The notes beneath the pieces are model-generated. The model was not told where the DNA came from, made no database searches, and saw only the letters and a list, made by a program, of their open reading frames with translations. Positions 7,942 to 15,008 of a DNA stretch of 64,000 nucleotides are shown here, in pieces (within the stretch, counting starts at the first letter, position 1; each line of letters opens with the position of its first letter). Source of the stretch: Thiothrix litoralis (lineage in GTDB: Bacteria > Pseudomonadota > Gammaproteobacteria > Thiotrichales > Thiotrichaceae). Location of the stretch: assembly GCF_017901135.1 (NCBI RefSeq), contig NZ_CP072801.1:1488001-1552000 (forward strand). Reading direction: 5' to 3'. Position numbers and translations under genes: made by a program.

Positions 7942-8475
7942 ATGGATTTGCAGGATTTTGAAGCCGAAGACCTTTATTTCAACGCCACCATCGACCCTGA
8001 AATCGCCGCATTATTGGAGGAAGCCTCCAACCTTTACCCAGAACCGGAGGCCGAAACCCTGCTACTTCGTGCTTATTTCCTCGCCCCCGAAGATTTGAAC
8101 GTGCTGGTCGCACTGTACCGCTATTTCTACTACCAACATCGCCTGCCGGATGCGCTAAACGTGGCACACAAAGCCATCGCCGTCAGCGGCAAACGTTTGC
8201 ACCTGCCGGAAGATTGGCGGCATTTGACCCGTTTGCATCTGGGGCAAGGTGTGCTGGTTTCCATGACCTTGACGCGCTTCTACCTGATGGCGCACAAGGG
8301 CGCGGGCTATCTGGAAATGCGGCTGGGGGAACTGGCGGATGCGGTCGGGCGGCTGCAAACGCTGGTGGATATTGATAGCAACGACCGGCTGGGCGCGAAG
8401 GCGTTGCTGGTGCTGGCGCAGGAGCATTTGTATGAGCAGCAAGGGGTGGCGGTGTTGCGCAAGGCGGCGGGTTAA
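7942..8475 (+). CDS. Unrecognised helical (TPR-like) nif-operon protein, 177 aa
   Basis: I do not recognise a named family. The start at 7942 lies 4 bp after the cysE stop and follows AGGGGAC. The sequence (ALLEEASNLYPEPEAETLLLRAYFLAPED, then VLVALYRYFYYQ and ALNVAHKAIAV) has the alternating large/small pattern of tetratricopeptide helices. Its position between cysE and the nifW promoter points to a nif accessory role. The stop codon overlaps the stop of the convergent Fic gene, so the foreign block begins immediately at its 3' end. Confidence 0.8.
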   Translation: MDLQDFEAEDLYFNATIDPEIAALLEEASNLYPEPEAETLLLRAYFLAPEDLNVLVALYRYFYYQHRLPDALNVAHKAIAVSGKRLHLPEDWRHLTRLHLGQGVLVSMTLTRFYLMAHKGAGYLEMRLGELADAVGRLQTLVDIDSNDRLGAKALLVLAQEHLYEQQGVAVLRKAAG

Positions 8476-9950
8476 TCCGACCAATAGCGGCGCACGACTG
8501 CTACCATCGCTGCTCCTAACGCAGCGTCTTGCAGCGCCGGATATTCCTTCTGGATTTTGCGTGACAAACCAGCGGGATTTTCACGTATCGAACGGATAAT
8601 CCGGTCAATGTCAGCGTCCGGGGCTTCCAGCAGCGCCTTGATTGCTAGCCGCGCCTGCCGCATGGTTTGCAAATAGACTGCTTCCTCACGCATTTCCTGT
8701 TCCAGCGTTTGCGCCACTACCTCGGCGAGGTATTCGGTCTGCGCCGTCAAATCGGGGTAACGCCAAGCGTGCAACGCGTCGGCATAAGCGTGAAAATGCA
8801 GGTTGTAACGCACCCCATCCGCCGCTTCCTGCTCTTCCCCAAACGCATACTGTCCACGATAACGCTGCATCAGCGGGCGCGAAAAGGCTTCCAGTGCTTG
8901 ATCATAGGCTCGCCGTGCTGCCGGATTACGGTTGATGGTAGCGGAAACAGGCAAGATATACGGTGCAGGTATTACCCCGTCACGGCGCAAGATGTCATTG
9001 ACCAGAAAGCGCGACACCCGCCCGTTCCCGTCCACCAGCGGATGCAGGTAGACAAACCCGAACGCCAACAATGCCGCCCGTAACACACTGGCTTGCCCAC
9101 GAGTACGCTGTTCCACTGTTGCCAGACCTGCCAACAGCGCGGGCGTATCGTCCCAATGCGGCGCGATGTAATGCACCACGGGCAGAAAACCTTGCACCTC
9201 ACCGACAAACACGGGGGAACGGCGTAGCCCGTAACGGGTAGCCTTATCGCCGAGGATTTCCCGCTGCAATGCGGTCAGAAAATCCGCTGCCAACGGGGTG
9301 GGGGCTTGTCCGCAATGCCGTTCCATCGCAGTGGCGAAGCGTTGCACCCGGTCGGTTTGCTGACCTTCGTGTTCCAGCGTGAAACTGGCGAGGCTTTCTT
9401 TCACCGTTAGCCAAACAGCACTGCGTATCAACAGGTCTTCGCCGTAAGCCTGTTCCAGATGCTGCAAATGCTGGGCGCAATCGTAAGTTTCTGCTGCTTG
9501 AATCGCTGCCGTGCGGCGAATGAGCGGGCAATAAGCCGCCGTTCCGAGCAGATTGTCGCGCACGCGCCAGCGCGGGTTATTGGTGGCGGTGTGGGCGGTG
9601 AAATAGTGTTGTGGATTCAGTACATTCACGTAATTGCCGACTGTTACCCCCGCAAACGCCAGCCGCTGCCCGGTTAGCCATTCGTAAAAAAAACCTGCCC
9701 GCCGTGCGTATTGCCCGCTGGGTTCTTGCGCCAGCCATACCTCTAGTTCCTGCACCGGCAGCAGCACAAACAGACGCGACAGGCATTCAAGGTGAACGCC
9801 TTCGTATTTGAAAGCAAACGTCAAGTGACCTGCCAAGGTATCCGCAGGGCGCGTGCTGGGCAAACGGGCAGGCGTGAGGAATGGCTGGGCAGGTTCTAGC
9901 CCGTAATGGTGCGCCAACCAGCGATAACCGGACAAGGTGGACATGAGCAA
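8472..9950 (-). CDS. Fic-domain protein with N-terminal inhibitory motif, 492 aa
   Basis: The Fic active-site motif is present as HPLVDGNGRVSR (residues 303-314), with the catalytic histidine and the GNGR anion-binding loop; the usual phenylalanine is leucine. Fic enzymes transfer AMP or related groups from nucleotides to target proteins. A candidate self-inhibitory motif (S/T)xxxE(G/N) is seen as TLEHEG (191-196), upstream of the Fic core, as in class II Fic proteins. The C-terminal 150 residues are helical. It is encoded opposite to the nif genes and ends exactly on the stop of the 177-aa gene. Confidence 0.88.
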   Translation of the reverse strand: MLMSTLSGYRWLAHHYGLEPAQPFLTPARLPSTRPADTLAGHLTFAFKYEGVHLECLSRLFVLLPVQELEVWLAQEPSGQYARRAGFFYEWLTGQRLAFAGVTVGNYVNVLNPQHYFTAHTATNNPRWRVRDNLLGTAAYCPLIRRTAAIQAAETYDCAQHLQHLEQAYGEDLLIRSAVWLTVKESLASFTLEHEGQQTDRVQRFATAMERHCGQAPTPLAADFLTALQREILGDKATRYGLRRSPVFVGEVQGFLPVVHYIAPHWDDTPALLAGLATVEQRTRGQASVLRAALLAFGFVYLHPLVDGNGRVSRFLVNDILRRDGVIPAPYILPVSATINRNPAARRAYDQALEAFSRPLMQRYRGQYAFGEEQEAADGVRYNLHFHAYADALHAWRYPDLTAQTEYLAEVVAQTLEQEMREEAVYLQTMRQARLAIKALLEAPDADIDRIIRSIRENPAGLSRKIQKEYPALQDAALGAAMVAVVRRYWSD

Positions 9951-10023
9951 GCATTCCTGTGGGGGTGGATTTTGTATAATGCCTGCAAATTTTATATAGA
10001 AAAAGGTTTTTATACTGAAAAAC

Positions 10024-10848
10024 TTATAATTCTGCCAGTATCACCCGCTGCGTATCCAGCATGGAATCGGCGATGAAATCTAGAAACGGCTCAATATCTC
10101 CCCTATCCGCCGCCGCTAAGGCTTGCAGGTAAATCCGCCGTTTGGTGGTGCGCACAATCACGGGAGTATAGCCTTGTATCAGCAGGATCAGGTTCATCAA
10201 TATTCGCGCCCCACGCCCGTTACCATCGTCGAAGGGGTGAATCCGCACCATGTTGTAATGGGCAATCCCCGCCACTGTGATTGCGTGAAGCTGGCTCAGA
10301 TTTGAGTTCACCCAGTCGCATAATTGCTGCATTTCCAGCGGGACTTGTAGCGGTTCGATGTAATGGTGGATTGAACCGTCCTGTTGCAACACATGATTCG
10401 GCTGCGATTTATACTGCCCCGGTGTGGCGGGCTTTTGTACCCGTTGCCCTTGTGAATTCAGTGCAGGGGTAGATTGCACGCCCGCCAGCAATAGCGCATT
10501 GAGTTCCTTGATCAGCCCTTCGCTGATGGCGCGTTTTTGTGCTACCACATCAAACAGCAGGTCGATGGCTTCGGCATGATTGCGGGCATCGAGAAAATCC
10601 TTGAACGGTTTGCCCTCTACCGTCAGCCCTTCCTGCAAAAAGAAGATGGTTTCACCGAGCGTCAGCGTGCTGCCTTCGATGGCGTTGCTGTCATACGTCC
10701 ATTCAGCGCGGAGCTTTTGCTGGATGGGTTGCCAGCGGTCAGTTTGTTGCGCACGCAAACGCTGGATGTCCGCTTGCGCGGCATCAATGGCTGCCAGTTT
10801 GCTGGTCAACTGGGCGGAGGGCTGGAATTGGTAGGAAGGGTTTTGCAT
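10024..10848 (-). CDS. Fic-domain protein, 274 aa
   Basis: A compact Fic protein. The core motif HPFDDGNGRGAR is at 204-215, and the inhibitory motif SNAIEG is at 54-59 inside TYDSNAIEGSTLTLGET, the usual N-terminal arrangement of self-inhibited (class II) Fic AMP-transferases. It is a different subfamily from the 492-aa Fic protein downstream; two dissimilar Fic genes side by side are unusual. Upstream is the GTPase gene, same strand, with a gap of only 40 bp, so all three may be cotranscribed. Confidence 0.9.
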   Translation of the reverse strand: MQNPSYQFQPSAQLTSKLAAIDAAQADIQRLRAQQTDRWQPIQQKLRAEWTYDSNAIEGSTLTLGETIFFLQEGLTVEGKPFKDFLDARNHAEAIDLLFDVVAQKRAISEGLIKELNALLLAGVQSTPALNSQGQRVQKPATPGQYKSQPNHVLQQDGSIHHYIEPLQVPLEMQQLCDWVNSNLSQLHAITVAGIAHYNMVRIHPFDDGNGRGARILMNLILLIQGYTPVIVRTTKRRIYLQALAAADRGDIEPFLDFIADSMLDTQRVILAEL

Positions 10849-10888
10849 ACGTCATACTTTTAGCATATTTACCAACAACACCGTTAGT

Positions 10889-13771
10889 TTAGGAAAGCAA
10901 AGCCGCTGCCGCCGTCACTGCTGTCCCTATCGCTGCCTGATGTTCAACAACGAATCCGCCAACATCGGTCATGTCTTTGGCAACGTTGGTGAGTTCACGG
11001 ATACCGCCCCAGAGTTTGCCCAACACCGATTGGCTTTTCTCTGTTGGCTGTTTTTCGTCAGTTTTGACCGCTTTGCGCACATCATAAACAGCTTCCAGCA
11101 CATCGTCCGATAGGTTGGCTTTGTGGCGCAGCATTTCATCTAGCACAGAACTGATGATTTGGCGTTGGTCGGCTGTCACTGTGATGGTGGTATTGTCCGA
11201 ATGGGATTTTTGAGTGTTGTGGTCGCCGATGATGACTTGCCCGTTGGTGACGTTAATATTGCCTGTACTTGCCATTTTTCTTACCTCTTGGAAAATTTGG
11301 TCGTAACTGTTGATCTGCGCCAGCACTTTAACCAAGCCTTCGCCGGAATGCACCGAGAATGATTGCTGGTTGAACAATACCGATGGATGAATCTGTTCCG
11401 GTCGGATACCGTTCGGACTCACCAGCACCGCTTTCAGATGCGTGAAGAACTCGCGTAACAGCGAGGAAAATGCCTTCAAATCTCCGGTCAGCACCATTTC
11501 GATGACATTTTTTCGCAGTAGGTAATGTACGACCGCCTGACTTGTTGTACCCGCCTTCAGGATGAAACCTTGCCGCCAAATGTTTTGAGGGTCATGAATG
11601 CCCACTTCGCTATGCGGCACAAACAATTTATGCACCAATCTTGCATGGAAACCCAGTGGCAGGTAAGGCAGGTCGAAACGCAGTATTAGTTTGTTCTGTT
11701 GATTCAGTAGTTCGCTGACCAAAAGCGGCTCATCTGCTCGCGTTGCATCTGGAAAGAAATACTTGCCATTATCCTGTAACCGAATACACAGAGAACGTTC
11801 ATTGAGAAAGCTGACCAGATATTCCACATGGTCTTCATCCACTTTGCCTGCAAATACTTGCTCCAACTCGGTCAAATTCAGAATACCGTTGGCTTGGCGC
11901 AATGCGGGGGAATAAAGCAATTGGTAGGCGTTGTCTACCGCCCATGCGGGTTTGAGGCAGTAGCGGCTCTTGCCCTTCTCGACCTGTACCAGAAAACCAA
12001 GTTGTTGCAACTGATTGAGGGTACTATCGGTATTTTTTGCATCTTGAATATTAGCCGCAATCAGTTCGCGTAACTTGCTTTCACGCACGAAAACGGTATC
12101 CCCGTCTTTGTATTGCGCATCCAATGCCCGTTGTACATCCAGCGTTTCCTTCAGAACCATTTTCTGGCTGTCGAGGCTGGCTTTTACCAAGGATTGCACG
12201 AAGCGTTTAAAATCTGGCTCATCTTTGTCGAGACAAGAGAAGTAGAAGAAACTTTCATCCGAAAACTGCTTGGGGAATTCGCGCCGTAAACGGGTTTTAT
12301 TCTGGTAAGTTTCACATTGTTCATACCAATTGGTGACAAGTAGCACTTTTACTTGTGAGCCTGCTAAGTGGCGGATTTGGTGAAGCCATTCATCGGGAGC
12401 TTGTTCGTGGCGGCTATCCACTACTAACACGTAAACGCAGTTTTCATGCAGAAACGCACTATGCAAACCGTGGAAAATAGTTTGTCCACCGAAGTCCCAC
12501 AAAAATAAATCTAGTTTTTTACCATCCAGGCCACAATCGGGAAAAGTGTCGAGTACATTAATGGATTGATGTTGGAGATAATCAACACCAACAGTTGGTT
12601 GCTTAATATATTGAACCATATTTCCTTGCAAACGATCAGCTAATGAGCTTTTTCCAGCACCTCCTGGGCCTAACAAGATTACTCGCGCTGAATGCGTTGT
12701 TTCAATTTTCGCTCCAAGAACAGCAAGTTGTAGTGCGATAGGATCATTAGTAATTGCAACAGAAAACTCTTTTAGATAATTTTGAGCATGTGGCTCAGGA
12801 AAATCACCATTCCATAAATTTTTTAAATCTTCAGCAAGAAACTCCAACTTAAGTTGACGTAAGTTTCCTAGTAATCCAGATTCCCATTCTAGTATTTTTT
12901 TGGGCTTTTTATCATATAATTTTTTTATTGAAAATAATGGAATAGAGTCCTGAAAAAAATCAGTTTCATAGAGCCAATTAAAATCATTTCGAGCCATTGC
13001 AACTGATTCAGCTTCAATCTTCGCTGCTCTAGCTGCAATAACCATTGTTTCAGCAATAGCACTCTTTGTATCGTTGAGTACGACATCTACAATTCTGACG
13101 ACAGCCGCAGCCGCTTCAGCAGTGGAAACTTCATCTGCGATGGCTTTAGCCCTAACTACAGCCTTTTTGGCCTCGCAATCAATTGATTGGGAAATTGCAG
13201 CAGATTCAGCCGCATCTGATGCTCTGGCTGCTTGCTTGGCAGCAATAGATTCTGCTCTTTCCGCTGCAATGCAGGCAGAATCAGCATTAGCTCTCACAAA
13301 ATCTAACTTACTAGTATCAGTAATAAATCTGACAATACTATTTTTAGAAAATGCAATATCTCTGGCTTTTATAGCAATTGTTCTAGCAGTCTCTGCATCA
13401 ATCTTCGCAGAAGCCGCAGCTTGTCGTTCCGACGCTGCCAAAAAGTCAGTCTTTGCAGCAAATATCTCCGCATCCGTCACGGCTGTTCCATCTTTAGTTG
13501 CAGCAACAGCTCTAGTTGCTTCCAATCCCACGGTATTGATAACAGATTGTGCTCGCTCTTTAGCTATTAACCATTGTTGAATAACAATTGGAATGCGCAA
13601 AATTAAGTAAATATTTTCTACTAGCTTATCAGGCCAAACTTCCTCAAGAGATAAACTCCCTAAAATTGGTAAAATTCGTAGTGTATTCCTCCACGCATAC
13701 CACACCAGCGCATCATGCCCTTTCTCATGGTAGAGCTTCTCAAGTTCTTCTTCGGTAGGGAGTTCTGCCAT
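10889..13771 (-). CDS. Large Roc-type GTPase with alanine-rich helical N terminus, 960 aa
   Basis: Residue numbers are from the ATG at 13771. Residues 75-260 are alanine-rich with charged residues (for example IAAERAESIAAKQAARASDA), predicting a long helix or coiled coil. Residues 363-520 form a Ras/Roc-like GTPase: Walker A LLGPGGAGKSSL, G3 as WDFGGQ, G4 as LLVTNW. A COR-like region follows (about 530-780). The last 130 residues start with GNINVTNGQVIIGDHNTQ and end in a hydrophobic helix. This architecture resembles multidomain NTPase conflict or defence proteins; a defence role is inference. The 5' part (about 12500-13770) is visibly AT-richer than the 3' part, suggesting a mosaic gene. 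Confidence 0.82.
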   Translation of the reverse strand: MAELPTEEELEKLYHEKGHDALVWYAWRNTLRILPILGSLSLEEVWPDKLVENIYLILRIPIVIQQWLIAKERAQSVINTVGLEATRAVAATKDGTAVTDAEIFAAKTDFLAASERQAAASAKIDAETARTIAIKARDIAFSKNSIVRFITDTSKLDFVRANADSACIAAERAESIAAKQAARASDAAESAAISQSIDCEAKKAVVRAKAIADEVSTAEAAAAVVRIVDVVLNDTKSAIAETMVIAARAAKIEAESVAMARNDFNWLYETDFFQDSIPLFSIKKLYDKKPKKILEWESGLLGNLRQLKLEFLAEDLKNLWNGDFPEPHAQNYLKEFSVAITNDPIALQLAVLGAKIETTHSARVILLGPGGAGKSSLADRLQGNMVQYIKQPTVGVDYLQHQSINVLDTFPDCGLDGKKLDLFLWDFGGQTIFHGLHSAFLHENCVYVLVVDSRHEQAPDEWLHQIRHLAGSQVKVLLVTNWYEQCETYQNKTRLRREFPKQFSDESFFYFSCLDKDEPDFKRFVQSLVKASLDSQKMVLKETLDVQRALDAQYKDGDTVFVRESKLRELIAANIQDAKNTDSTLNQLQQLGFLVQVEKGKSRYCLKPAWAVDNAYQLLYSPALRQANGILNLTELEQVFAGKVDEDHVEYLVSFLNERSLCIRLQDNGKYFFPDATRADEPLLVSELLNQQNKLILRFDLPYLPLGFHARLVHKLFVPHSEVGIHDPQNIWRQGFILKAGTTSQAVVHYLLRKNVIEMVLTGDLKAFSSLLREFFTHLKAVLVSPNGIRPEQIHPSVLFNQQSFSVHSGEGLVKVLAQINSYDQIFQEVRKMASTGNINVTNGQVIIGDHNTQKSHSDNTTITVTADQRQIISSVLDEMLRHKANLSDDVLEAVYDVRKAVKTDEKQPTEKSQSVLGKLWGGIRELTNVAKDMTDVGGFVVEHQAAIGTAVTAAAALLS

Positions 13772-13855
13772 ACAAACCCTGCTTTGTGGTTGGGGAAGAT
13801 GCGAGCATTTTGGCACGGATAGGAAAAGAATTCAGCAAGTTACACACGCTGCCCA

Positions 13856-14293
13856 TCATGTCAGATTACGCAAGTCTTCAAGGTCTTTCGGTCTGCCACT
13901 CGCCGCCTTATTTTTCTTGAAATCCTCAAGACTGATAACATGAACAGTCAAGCCACCATATTCCACATCCAGACGCTGAGAATAACTGCTGGAGAAATCC
14001 ACGCCATCCGGTTGGGTAAGCAAATCAATGCGTAAAGGCGGGTAGCCAAGCTGGATCACATTACCTAGTTTGGTGAAATCATCGGTACTCAAATCAAGTT
14101 CGCCGAAGCCAAACGCCTCCAGCACTGCCATGACTTTTTCGGCGTTGACCTGCTCAGGCTTGACCCAAATATCCATATCGCCGGTATAGCGCGGATAGCC
14201 GTGAATACCGAGCGCGTAACCACCCACCAGCAGGTATTCAACCCCGTGATTGTTCAGTAACTCGATAAACTCTTTGAAGTCGCGGTGGAACAT
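13856..14293 (-). CDS. Nucleotidyltransferase-fold protein (MNT/AbiEii-like), 145 aa
   Basis: The motif LLVGGYALGIHGYPRYTGDMDIWV (about residues 20-43) is the GG...DxD signature of the polymerase-beta-type nucleotidyltransferase fold, and RIDLLT supplies a third acidic position. Such proteins occur as toxins or antitoxins in MNT/HEPN- or AbiE-like modules. It overlaps the preceding small gene by 56 bp. Enzymatic activity is not established from sequence. Confidence 0.82.
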   Translation of the reverse strand: MFHRDFKEFIELLNNHGVEYLLVGGYALGIHGYPRYTGDMDIWVKPEQVNAEKVMAVLEAFGFGELDLSTDDFTKLGNVIQLGYPPLRIDLLTQPDGVDFSSSYSQRLDVEYGGLTVHVISLEDFKKNKAASGRPKDLEDLRNLT

Positions 14294-14456
14294 CTTGACG
14301 GAAACTCAAATAAGATTGGCGGAGCATTTCAATGGCATCAATGCGTTCTGCAATCGGGCGCGTGACCCAATACTGGTAGTCAGACGGTTGGTCTTTGTTA
14401 GTGGTGATGCATACCACCTTCCTAATCATGCGCGGAGCGGGTGCGGCTTGTTCCAT
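14238..14456 (-). CDS. Small partner protein of the nucleotidyltransferase, 72 aa
   Basis: MEQAAPAPRMIRKVVCITTN continues into a stretch with YQYWVTRPIAERIDAIEML and RLQRVYRV. I recall similar short proteins encoded just upstream of nucleotidyltransferases of this type, but I cannot name the family. The overlap of 56 bp with the nucleotidyltransferase implies coupled translation, as in two-gene toxin-antitoxin modules. Which member would be the toxin is unknown. Confidence 0.68.
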   Translation of the reverse strand: MEQAAPAPRMIRKVVCITTNKDQPSDYQYWVTRPIAERIDAIEMLRQSYLSFRQDVPPRLQRVYRVTEQSRG

Positions 14457-14533
14457 ACTGATCCCGGTTGCCTGTGAACTGAAGGTTGATTATAGCATTG
14501 GCATTCCCCACCAGTTTGCTATTAATGTGGCAA

Positions 14534-14549
14534 TGTCCCCTTTCCCACA
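14534..14549. promoter_or_regulatory. NifA upstream activator site 1 for nifW
   Basis: TGT-CCCCTTTCCC-ACA fits TGT-N10-ACA, 87 bp before the -24 box. It is one of two sites spaced 35 bp apart. Confidence 0.7.
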
Positions 14550-14568
14550 ATCTCCCACCTCCCGTCAC

Positions 14569-14584
14569 TGTACCAAACCCGACA
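14569..14584. promoter_or_regulatory. NifA upstream activator site 2 for nifW
   Basis: TGT-ACCAAACCCG-ACA fits TGT-N10-ACA, 52 bp before the -24 box, the same spacing as at nifV. Confidence 0.82.
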
Positions 14585-14636
14585 TACCCCACATCAACAA
14601 CGCCCAAGCTATTGAATAACAAACAATTTAACAACA

Positions 14637-14652
14637 TGGCACGCCCTTTGCT
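14637..14652 (+). promoter_or_regulatory. Sigma-54 promoter of nifWZM-clpX
   Basis: TGGCACGCCCTTTGCT is an exact TGGCAC-N5-TTGCT element, 32 bp before the nifW ATG. Confidence 0.92.
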
Positions 14653-14684
14653 TGATCTTCCTCATTTGGCACAAGGAGCACGAC

Positions 14685-15008
14685 ATGACCGATACCGACC
14701 TCACCCTCGACCTCGAAGAACTGGTCAGCGCGGAAGACTTCCTCAACTATTTCGACATCGCGTTTGACCAGACCGTGGTGCATGTCAACCGCCTGCACAT
14801 CCTGCAACGCTTCCACAACTACCTGACGAAAGAGCCAGTCGCCAGCAACGACGATGCCATGCGCGAACAGTACACGCGCCTGCTCACCAAGGCGTATACC
14901 GATTTCGTGGGTTCTGACGCCAAGACCGAAAAAGTGCTGAAAGTCTACCGTATGAACGAACCGCAAACCGCTTTCGTCACGCTGGAAAGCCTGTTCGGGA
15001 AGGGGTAA
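14685..15008 (+). CDS. nifW: Nitrogenase-stabilising/protective protein NifW
   Basis: 107 aa, the normal NifW length. LEELVSAEDFLNYFDIAFDQ and VNRLHILQRFHNYL are characteristic of NifW, which binds the MoFe protein and helps protect or mature it. The ATG at 14685 has an AAGGAG site 7 bp upstream and gives a better start than an in-frame ATG at 14652, which lies inside the promoter. nifZ follows 4 bp later. Confidence 0.93.
   Translation: MTDTDLTLDLEELVSAEDFLNYFDIAFDQTVVHVNRLHILQRFHNYLTKEPVASNDDAMREQYTRLLTKAYTDFVGSDAKTEKVLKVYRMNEPQTAFVTLESLFGKG

Follow-up and report, generated by a model that had tools for sequence, protein, structure and literature searches.

A variable slot with conflict-type genes between two nif operons of Thiothrix, and the mosaic Roco GTPase that it holds

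Why should genes resembling toxins and immune proteins be lodged among genes for nitrogen fixation? The question is raised by a stretch of 64,000 nucleotides (nt) of the Thiothrix litoralis chromosome (assembly GCF_017901135.1, contig NZ_CP072801.1, positions 1,488,001 to 1,552,000), referred to here as the window. In it, two Fic proteins, a GTPase of the Roco type and a nucleotidyltransferase (NTase) with a small partner are encoded between nifV-cysE-tpr and nifWZM-clpX. We compared this locus across 63 genomes of the family, 16 of which belong to the genus Thiothrix (genomes carry G numbers and fetched loci L numbers). The slot, its borders, the turnover of its content, the separability of its modules and the mosaic build of the Roco gene emerge from comparison of the sequences. 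We consider it probable, at roughly three chances in four, that the block is what this genome carries in a defence hotspot flanked by core genes, and that it is composed of separable modules of the abortive-infection type, of which one is an NLR-like Roco receptor. The stretch from the stop codon of nifV-cysE-tpr to the first NifA-type site of nifWZM-clpX tolerates insertions and has been filled repeatedly with genes of the growth-arrest or immune type. The features concerned are listed below in window coordinates, with lengths in amino acids (aa).

7942-8475, plus strand: tpr (our own label), 177 aa, left anchor of the slot.
8476-14531, no strand: the variable slot, from the tpr stop to the first NifA-type site, defined by DNA similarity borders and gap lengths.
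8472-9950, minus strand: Fic1, 492 aa, matching PADLOC PDC-S24, with Fic motif HPLVDGNGRVSR and inhibitory-type motif TLEHEG.
10024-10848, minus strand: Fic2, 274 aa, nearest to PADLOC PDC-S04, with Fic motif HPFDDGNGRGAR and inhibitory-type motif SNAIEG.
10889-13771, minus strand: Roco (Roc-COR) GTPase, 960 aa, with PF08477, PF16095 and a fold match to 3dpu.
12694-13771, minus strand: putative exchangeable N-terminal cassette of Roco (short head, hypervariable alanine-rich region, link to Roc), from the similarity break, identity and guanine plus cytosine (GC) content.
13856-14293, minus strand: NTase, 145 aa, DUF6036.
14238-14456, minus strand: small, the 72-aa partner, whose gene overlaps that of the NTase; recurrently paired with it.
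14534-14549, plus strand: distal NifA-type site TGT-N10-ACA, the right border of the slot, from the sequence pattern.
14569-14584, plus strand: proximal NifA-type site TGT-N10-ACA, from the sequence pattern.
14637-14651, plus strand: sigma54-type -24/-12 promoter of nifW, TGGCACG-N4-TTGC, from the sequence pattern.
14685-15008, plus strand: nifW, right anchor, PF03206.

An earlier note on this DNA, made from the letters of the window, had described two dissimilar Fic proteins, a 960-aa Roc-type GTPase and an NTase with a small partner, all on the minus strand. We confirm each of these; the order of transcription is the 72-aa gene, NTase, Roco, Fic2 and Fic1. The Roco start is the ATG at 13771, and its reading frame stays open to a GTG at 13816. 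The block also ends, as described, on the stop codon of the upstream gene: the stops of Fic1 (8472-8474) and tpr (8473-8475) overlap. tpr, which follows cysE, has no family match in Pfam, PADLOC or NCBIfam. On the other side, nifW does appear to possess its own NifA promoter, judging from the sigma54-type site at 14637 and the TGT-N10-ACA motifs at 14534 and 14569. The note's picture of a block that interrupts an operon must be abandoned, since nifV-cysE-tpr ends where the block begins and nifWZM-clpX, on its other side, has a promoter of its own. Its name for the interval, cysE-nifW, is right for the nifW side only; on the other side the anchor is tpr, not cysE. Sigma70-type promoters and terminators predicted in 8300-14800 showed no excess over shuffled sequence (5 against 6.2 and 10 against 8.2, respectively).

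A nifW match was found in 12 of the 63 genomes, all within Thiothrix, and a tpr match in 13 of the 16 Thiothrix genomes; both genes occur at the common place in nine of the 16, that of the window included. In these nine the distance between the matched parts of tpr and nifW is 981, 998, 1735, 4669, 4945, 6212, 6517, 8352 and 10122 nt. At seven neighbouring junctions, each present in 5 to 12 genomes, the gap is at most 206 nt throughout. The count of a junction was confined to genomes whose fetched stretch gave a match to both of its genes (dadA was unmatched in L017, L018 and L021), and L018 has an extra gene between a nitroreductase-like gene and nifV. tpr lies far from nifW in G062 and G054 and on a different contig in G053. 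In L017 (G055), the cysE of the nif operon matches only residues 2-96 and 223-264 and seems shortened.

On the left, DNA similarity to relatives stops at 8440-8477. On the right, in the eight relatives that lack the NTase module here, it starts at 14532 in four (L013, L017, L019 and L023), at 14534 in L021, and later in L018 (14568), L015 (14613) and L022 (14637). The pair of TGT-N10-ACA motifs stands 103 and 68 nt before the TGGCACG-N4-TTGC promoter in all 12 genomes with nifW (in one, the distances are 104 and 69 nt). Because similarity ends at the tpr stop and resumes at the NifA-type sites, the insertions lie between two transcription units and leave the NifA-type control region untouched. 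Constant core flanks with variable content between them, the mark of a hotspot, are present in each of the nine genomes. The slot suggests that defence genes can gather in a nif region harmlessly, up to the enhancer sites and not into them.

Comparison of this interval across relatives, which the earlier note had proposed, reveals that its content differs between nif-bearing genomes. G049 has Fic2, Roco, NTase and small. G061 has a DUF3368 gene, Fic2, a Roco with a TIR domain, NTase and small, and G060 has Fic1, a broken Fic2, a PIN_3 gene with an adjoining small gene (sub-threshold Arc match), Roco, NTase and small. The slot of G055 contains Fic2 and about 0.6 kb without assigned content. In that of G059 there are PIN_3 and DUF3368 genes, a Fic2 that has lost 84 nt internally, an AAA gene and an 1181-aa protein with CHAT, NB-ARC and TPR domains. 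In G056 there is a PIN gene and a 940-aa protein (AAA above the cut-off, nSTAND1 sub-threshold, WD40-like repeats by eye), in G058 DUF4258 and HTH genes, and in G057 a PIN_3 gene. At least one toxin- or defence-type gene is thus present in all nine shared-place slots, a count of presence and not a measure of enrichment. Together with the Pfam and PADLOC matches in the window, this bears out the description of the genes as conflict-type. With the CHAT-NB-ARC-TPR protein of G059 and the AAA/STAND-like protein of G056, three kinds of large nucleotide-switch protein use the slot, which supports an NLR-like role for Roco without making it a STAND protein. On the nifW side of G053, where the neighbours do not include tpr, lie a TumE gene and its HVO_A0114-type partner, a remnant of Roco, and Fic2. 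There (L013:10451-13544) Fic2 borders on an MFS-type gene, itself preceded by GAPDH-like and ArsR-like genes (labels by eye), and the junction suggests that a different region has become attached to the slot on its nifW side.

Such a slot might also be no more than a neutral landing site, where insertions are tolerated and the content mirrors what is abundant in Thiothrix, with no selection for place or combination. The inserts do leave the tpr stop and the NifA-type sites intact, Fic genes abound in the genus and many modules are broken. This explanation does not account well for the same functional class in nine slots of nine, nor for the sequences on either side of the Roco cassette (identity 99-100% in NTase and 95-98% in Fic2), which are conserved to the same degree as the nif genes. 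We regard it as rather unlikely; it overlaps the hotspot reading and differs from it only on selection.

The largest gene in the window's slot encodes a protein with Roc (PF08477) and COR (PF16095, COR-A) domains above the Pfam cut-off and COR-B below it. A P-loop Roc domain followed by COR identifies it as a Roco protein; the core is a Ras-like Roc GTPase and not a STAND-type NTPase. An AlphaFold model of the whole protein (mean predicted local distance difference test score, pLDDT, 62.6) matches the Chlorobium tepidum Roco structure 3dpu (expectation value, E, 2.2e-17) and also 6hlu. A search with the alignment across the 63 genomes yielded 14 full-length members; Thiothrix accounts for 12 of them, G038 and G039 for one apiece. 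Cut or broken members are present in G062, G035, G023, G050 and G053, and other matches are distant Roc proteins. When the genome collection was scanned with two peptide patterns, close relatives turned up only in Thiothrix, in the genera of G038 and G039, and in a single genome from a marine metagenome, which has the same contig as G057. In plasmids, Roco matched 6 records, all cyanobacterial and of 22-35% identity. Two side observations concern its paralogues: those of L071 and L072 end in hydrophobic stretches (by eye), and in G062 (L074:5993-9516) a further Roco gene is interrupted by transposase-like frames, with a gene of small size and a PIN-like gene directly before it (labels by eye).

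Sequence identity varies along the Roco protein. Averaged over the 66 pairs that 12 members form (without L014 and L016), it is 57% for the head of 66 residues and 15% for the region after it, and rises through 45% in the link to Roc to 73% in Roc itself; COR has 59%, the C-terminal linker 29% and the tail 34%. The hypervariable region comprises 97-219 residues, 11-50% of them alanine. In G061, at the same place, the N-terminal part is a TIR domain (TIR_2, 8e-21), and residues 372-975 are 86% identical to those of the window. DNA similarity of the Roco gene to G061 and to G060 breaks at 12693, just before the P-loop. G062 and the window share NTase at 100%, small at 97% and Fic2 at 96% identity, yet Roco residues 291-975 at only 62%; DNA identity there falls to 35% in 20-codon windows and returns to 88-100% in the tail. 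In the C-terminal linker (20-codon segment beginning at residue 855), DNA identity is 91% between G061 and G062 and 86% between the window and G049, and 41-50% in the other five comparisons. GC content varies as well: 40.1% in the N-terminal part of Roco and 47.0% in its core and tail, with 48.9% in NTase, 54.1% in Fic2, 58.0% in Fic1 and 57.5-59.2% in the flanking nif genes. The pattern of identity looks like cassette exchange around a conserved Roc-COR core.

Read in this manner, Roco would work like an NLR, with Roc-COR as a GTP-controlled switch that governs one or both ends of the protein, and with a tail and an N-terminal module that can be exchanged. Once tripped by a sign of infection, the switch would lead to arrest or death of the cell. 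The TIR version would act by consuming NAD (nicotinamide adenine dinucleotide), and the version in the window through its helical ends and perhaps through Fic2, which may serve Roco. New versions could arise by recombination in the conserved flanks, the NTase gene on one side and the Roco tail and Fic2 on the other. It is possible, though we hold it doubtful in this full form, that these proteins are an undescribed group of bacterial Roco immune receptors, with close relatives found in this comparison only in Thiotrichaceae, that diversify by swapping front modules and tails, many of them acting with an adjacent Fic protein. If so, bacteria would have in them an equivalent of NLR receptors built on a GTPase, and the shuffling of ROCO genes in brown algae would have its parallel among prokaryotes. 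To our knowledge, the role of bacterial Roco proteins, relatives of human LRRK2, is largely unestablished. We consider the Roco family more important than the slot itself. At a single locus, sister species carry the same GTPase core preceded in one case by a TIR domain and in others by a hypervariable helical region, an arrangement that makes an immune role of Roco directly testable.

Do the genes of the block form a system of their own? In a dedicated four- or five-gene system, inherited and acting together, Roco would be the sensor or switch, and the Fic proteins and NTase effectors or controls. The genes do lie on one strand in close order, and the arrangement NTase-small-Roco-Fic2 is retained at the nif slot of G049, G061 and the window and elsewhere in G062. 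Moreover, an intact Fic gene is the next gene, on the same strand, for seven of the 14 full-length Roco genes. This is Fic2 in the window, G049, G061 and G062, and in G049, G060 and G062 a second Fic family of 232-234 aa. The latter lies within 10 nt of the Roco gene (with a 4-nt overlap in L072), passes the Pfam cut-off and reads QFFYDVNKRMGR at the catalytic motif, where the histidine is missing; its three copies look nearly alike. They are located directly downstream of Roco paralogues as follows.

L071:5372-6070, same strand as Roco: second Fic family.
L072:8884-9585, same strand as Roco: second Fic family.
L073:5922-6626, same strand as Roco: second Fic family.

The distribution of the genes across genomes speaks against such a system, and on this ground we reject a single four-gene system. 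A near-identical Fic1 occurs in only one other of the 16 Thiothrix genomes, and Fic2, the NTase-small pair and Roco each occur without the others. No Fic gene adjoins six of the 14 Roco genes (G048, G054, G056, G057, G038 and G039), one G060 Roco gene is followed by a PIN gene and then the broken Fic2, and other pairs use the different Fic family. Conversely, Fic2 stands without an adjacent Roco in G055, G059, G048 and G052, and eight of ten further loci with small have NTase-small but no Roco within the fetched 2-3 kb. Independence elsewhere, which the earlier note had named as telling against its proposal, is largely what was found: the modules occur apart, and at non-nif places. We therefore think one dedicated system quite unlikely. 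Recurrent pairs are present instead: NTase with small and, more weakly, Roco with Fic. Since Fic genes are common and conflict genes cluster, the Roco-Fic link is a lead and not proof.

Pfam recognises a Fic domain in both Fic proteins, and both match PADLOC candidate-defence models. Fic1 aligns with PDC-S24 near full length (profile 46-489 of 497, E 4.1e-164), and Fic2 is nearest to the PDC-S04 and SoFic models. The NCBIfam SoFic equivalog cut-off of 550 bits is not reached by Fic2 (29.3 bits), and Fic1 has no listed match. The Fic motif is complete in each (HPLVDGNGRVSR in Fic1, with L for F, and HPFDDGNGRGAR in Fic2). Class II Fic proteins combine this motif with an N-terminal (S/T)xxxE(G/N) motif, and both proteins appear to belong to that class (SNAIEG in Fic2, TLEHEG in Fic1). 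They would AMPylate a host protein once self-inhibition is relieved and so arrest the cell. The nearest solved structures for Fic2 are 3cuc and FICD; Fic1 matches Fic structures weakly. Within the genus, the near-identical copy of Fic1 is at the same place in G060 (96%), and remote relatives exist in G060, G059 and G048 (31-33%) and, as a 30% fragment, in G049. Fic2 is present at 85-98% in 10 of the 16 genomes, with several copies broken or shortened; it adjoins Roco in the four genomes named above and a Roco remnant in G053.

The NTase belongs to Pfam DUF6036 and has no solved relative at E 0.1; its 72-aa partner has no family match in Pfam or NCBIfam. They form a conserved, recurrent pair, found together in all six Thiothrix loci examined (one NTase shortened) and in eight of ten further loci, several of them partial. 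The two exceptions are L092, where no NTase was detected at E 1, and L099, which keeps a 20-residue NTase remnant. small was found in 9 of 369 genomes of the class. An NTase with a conserved adjacent partner is the arrangement of nucleotidyltransferase-type toxin-antitoxin systems, and the two proteins would be toxin and antitoxin in a unit of that kind. L099 (G000:C1:3674513-3674707) is an orphan copy of the 72-aa gene, 82% identical, in the window's own genome. More generally, the modules of the slot would be anti-phage or growth-arrest devices.

A toxin-antitoxin-like pair invites the idea that these are addiction modules which stabilise the nif cluster, loss of the region leaving a long-lived toxin that kills the cell. 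The earlier note had ventured such stabilisation, for which we find no support. A toxin-type or Fic gene is indeed present in nine slots of nine, and NTase-small does resemble a two-gene toxin-antitoxin unit. Nevertheless, four of the 16 Thiothrix genomes have no nifW match, tpr and nifW are separated in G062 and G054, the same modules exist at non-nif sites, and nif has been retained despite broken or shortened copies of Fic2 and Roco in some cases. A Fic protein that inhibits itself, moreover, does not depend on an unstable antitoxin. Addiction is in our view very unlikely. Still less credible, indeed close to negligible, is that the block serves nitrogen fixation (for example, by a Fic protein modifying a nitrogenase-related protein, or by Roco sensing nitrogen status). 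Position alone favours such a role, while slot content varies between nif-bearing relatives and Fic2 and Roco occur also in G048 and G052, which have no nifW match. NifA control of the block was likewise rejected, there being no minus-strand sigma54-type site near the border.

Several points count against the hotspot reading with its NLR-like Roco. The hotspot rests on nine genomes from a single genus, with one genome per species, and Fic genes are common in any case (3 to 15 per Thiothrix genome). An insertion mechanism was not found, although no in-depth search for one was made. Neither the Roco protein nor the NTase has a match in PADLOC. For the N-terminal Roco region, helices are predicted at low confidence (mean pLDDT 54.5) and the fold search gave no match at E 0.001, so that the assignment of a sensing and an acting end is a guess.

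Core-gene hotspots have been described before; what sets this one apart is the Roco family with its swapped ends. By sequence and predicted fold, the Thiothrix Roco shares its Roc-COR core with that of C. tepidum, in which leucine-rich repeats (LRRs) precede the core; in Thiothrix this place is taken by the hypervariable alanine-rich helical region or TIR, and the tails are variable. The hotspots cDHS1 and cDHS2 of Pseudomonas aeruginosa (PMC10250203) likewise have core genes on both sides and variable immune genes between them. Unlike these, the Thiothrix slot is smaller (1-10 kb), lies between nif operons, ends at a NifA-type site and carries putative defence genes. Bacterial Roco proteins are reviewed in PMC6337361. 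Roc and COR have been placed in biological conflict as components of predicted ternary systems of prokaryotes (PMC7159879; see also PMC8195603), which are associated with a vWA component in cyanobacteria and verrucomicrobia. The brown-algal ROCO proteins are candidate immune receptors diversified by shuffling of a variable part (PMC11378527), there LRR exons, whereas the Thiothrix family exchanges N-terminal cassettes and tails. SoFic is an anti-phage Fic protein that acts by abortive infection (PMC12249575). Fic1 resembles PDC-S24, and Fic2 the PDC-S04 and SoFic models; neither attains the NCBIfam cut-off for SoFic, and anti-phage activity here is a candidate function. A comparison of Thiothrix genomes names the nif cluster, and toxin-antitoxin genes among the unique genes, and does not mention the tpr-nifW slot in the parts consulted (PMC8570282). 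Among the papers listed in the literature searches, we recognised none by title or abstract that deals with a bacterial defence system of the TIR-Roc-COR or Roco-Fic kind, which is not proof of absence.

Outside chromosomes, block DNA matched 6 plasmid records that cover at most 21% of the block, Fic2 matched 69 plasmid records, every one below 60% identity, and Fic1 had no match in phages. A second variable site may exist beside a moaA-like gene (label by eye) in L063 (G062) and L066 (G048). No Fic2 was recognised in the moaA-side flanks inspected in G000, G059 and G060. In G062 the unit Fic2-Roco-NTase-small lies beside the moaA-like gene. In G048 a Fic2 with the same 84-nt deletion as that of G059 lies beside the corresponding moaA-like gene (97% identical), and a relative (67%) of the CHAT protein of G059 is found about 2.7 kb beyond it, together with transposase-like frames.

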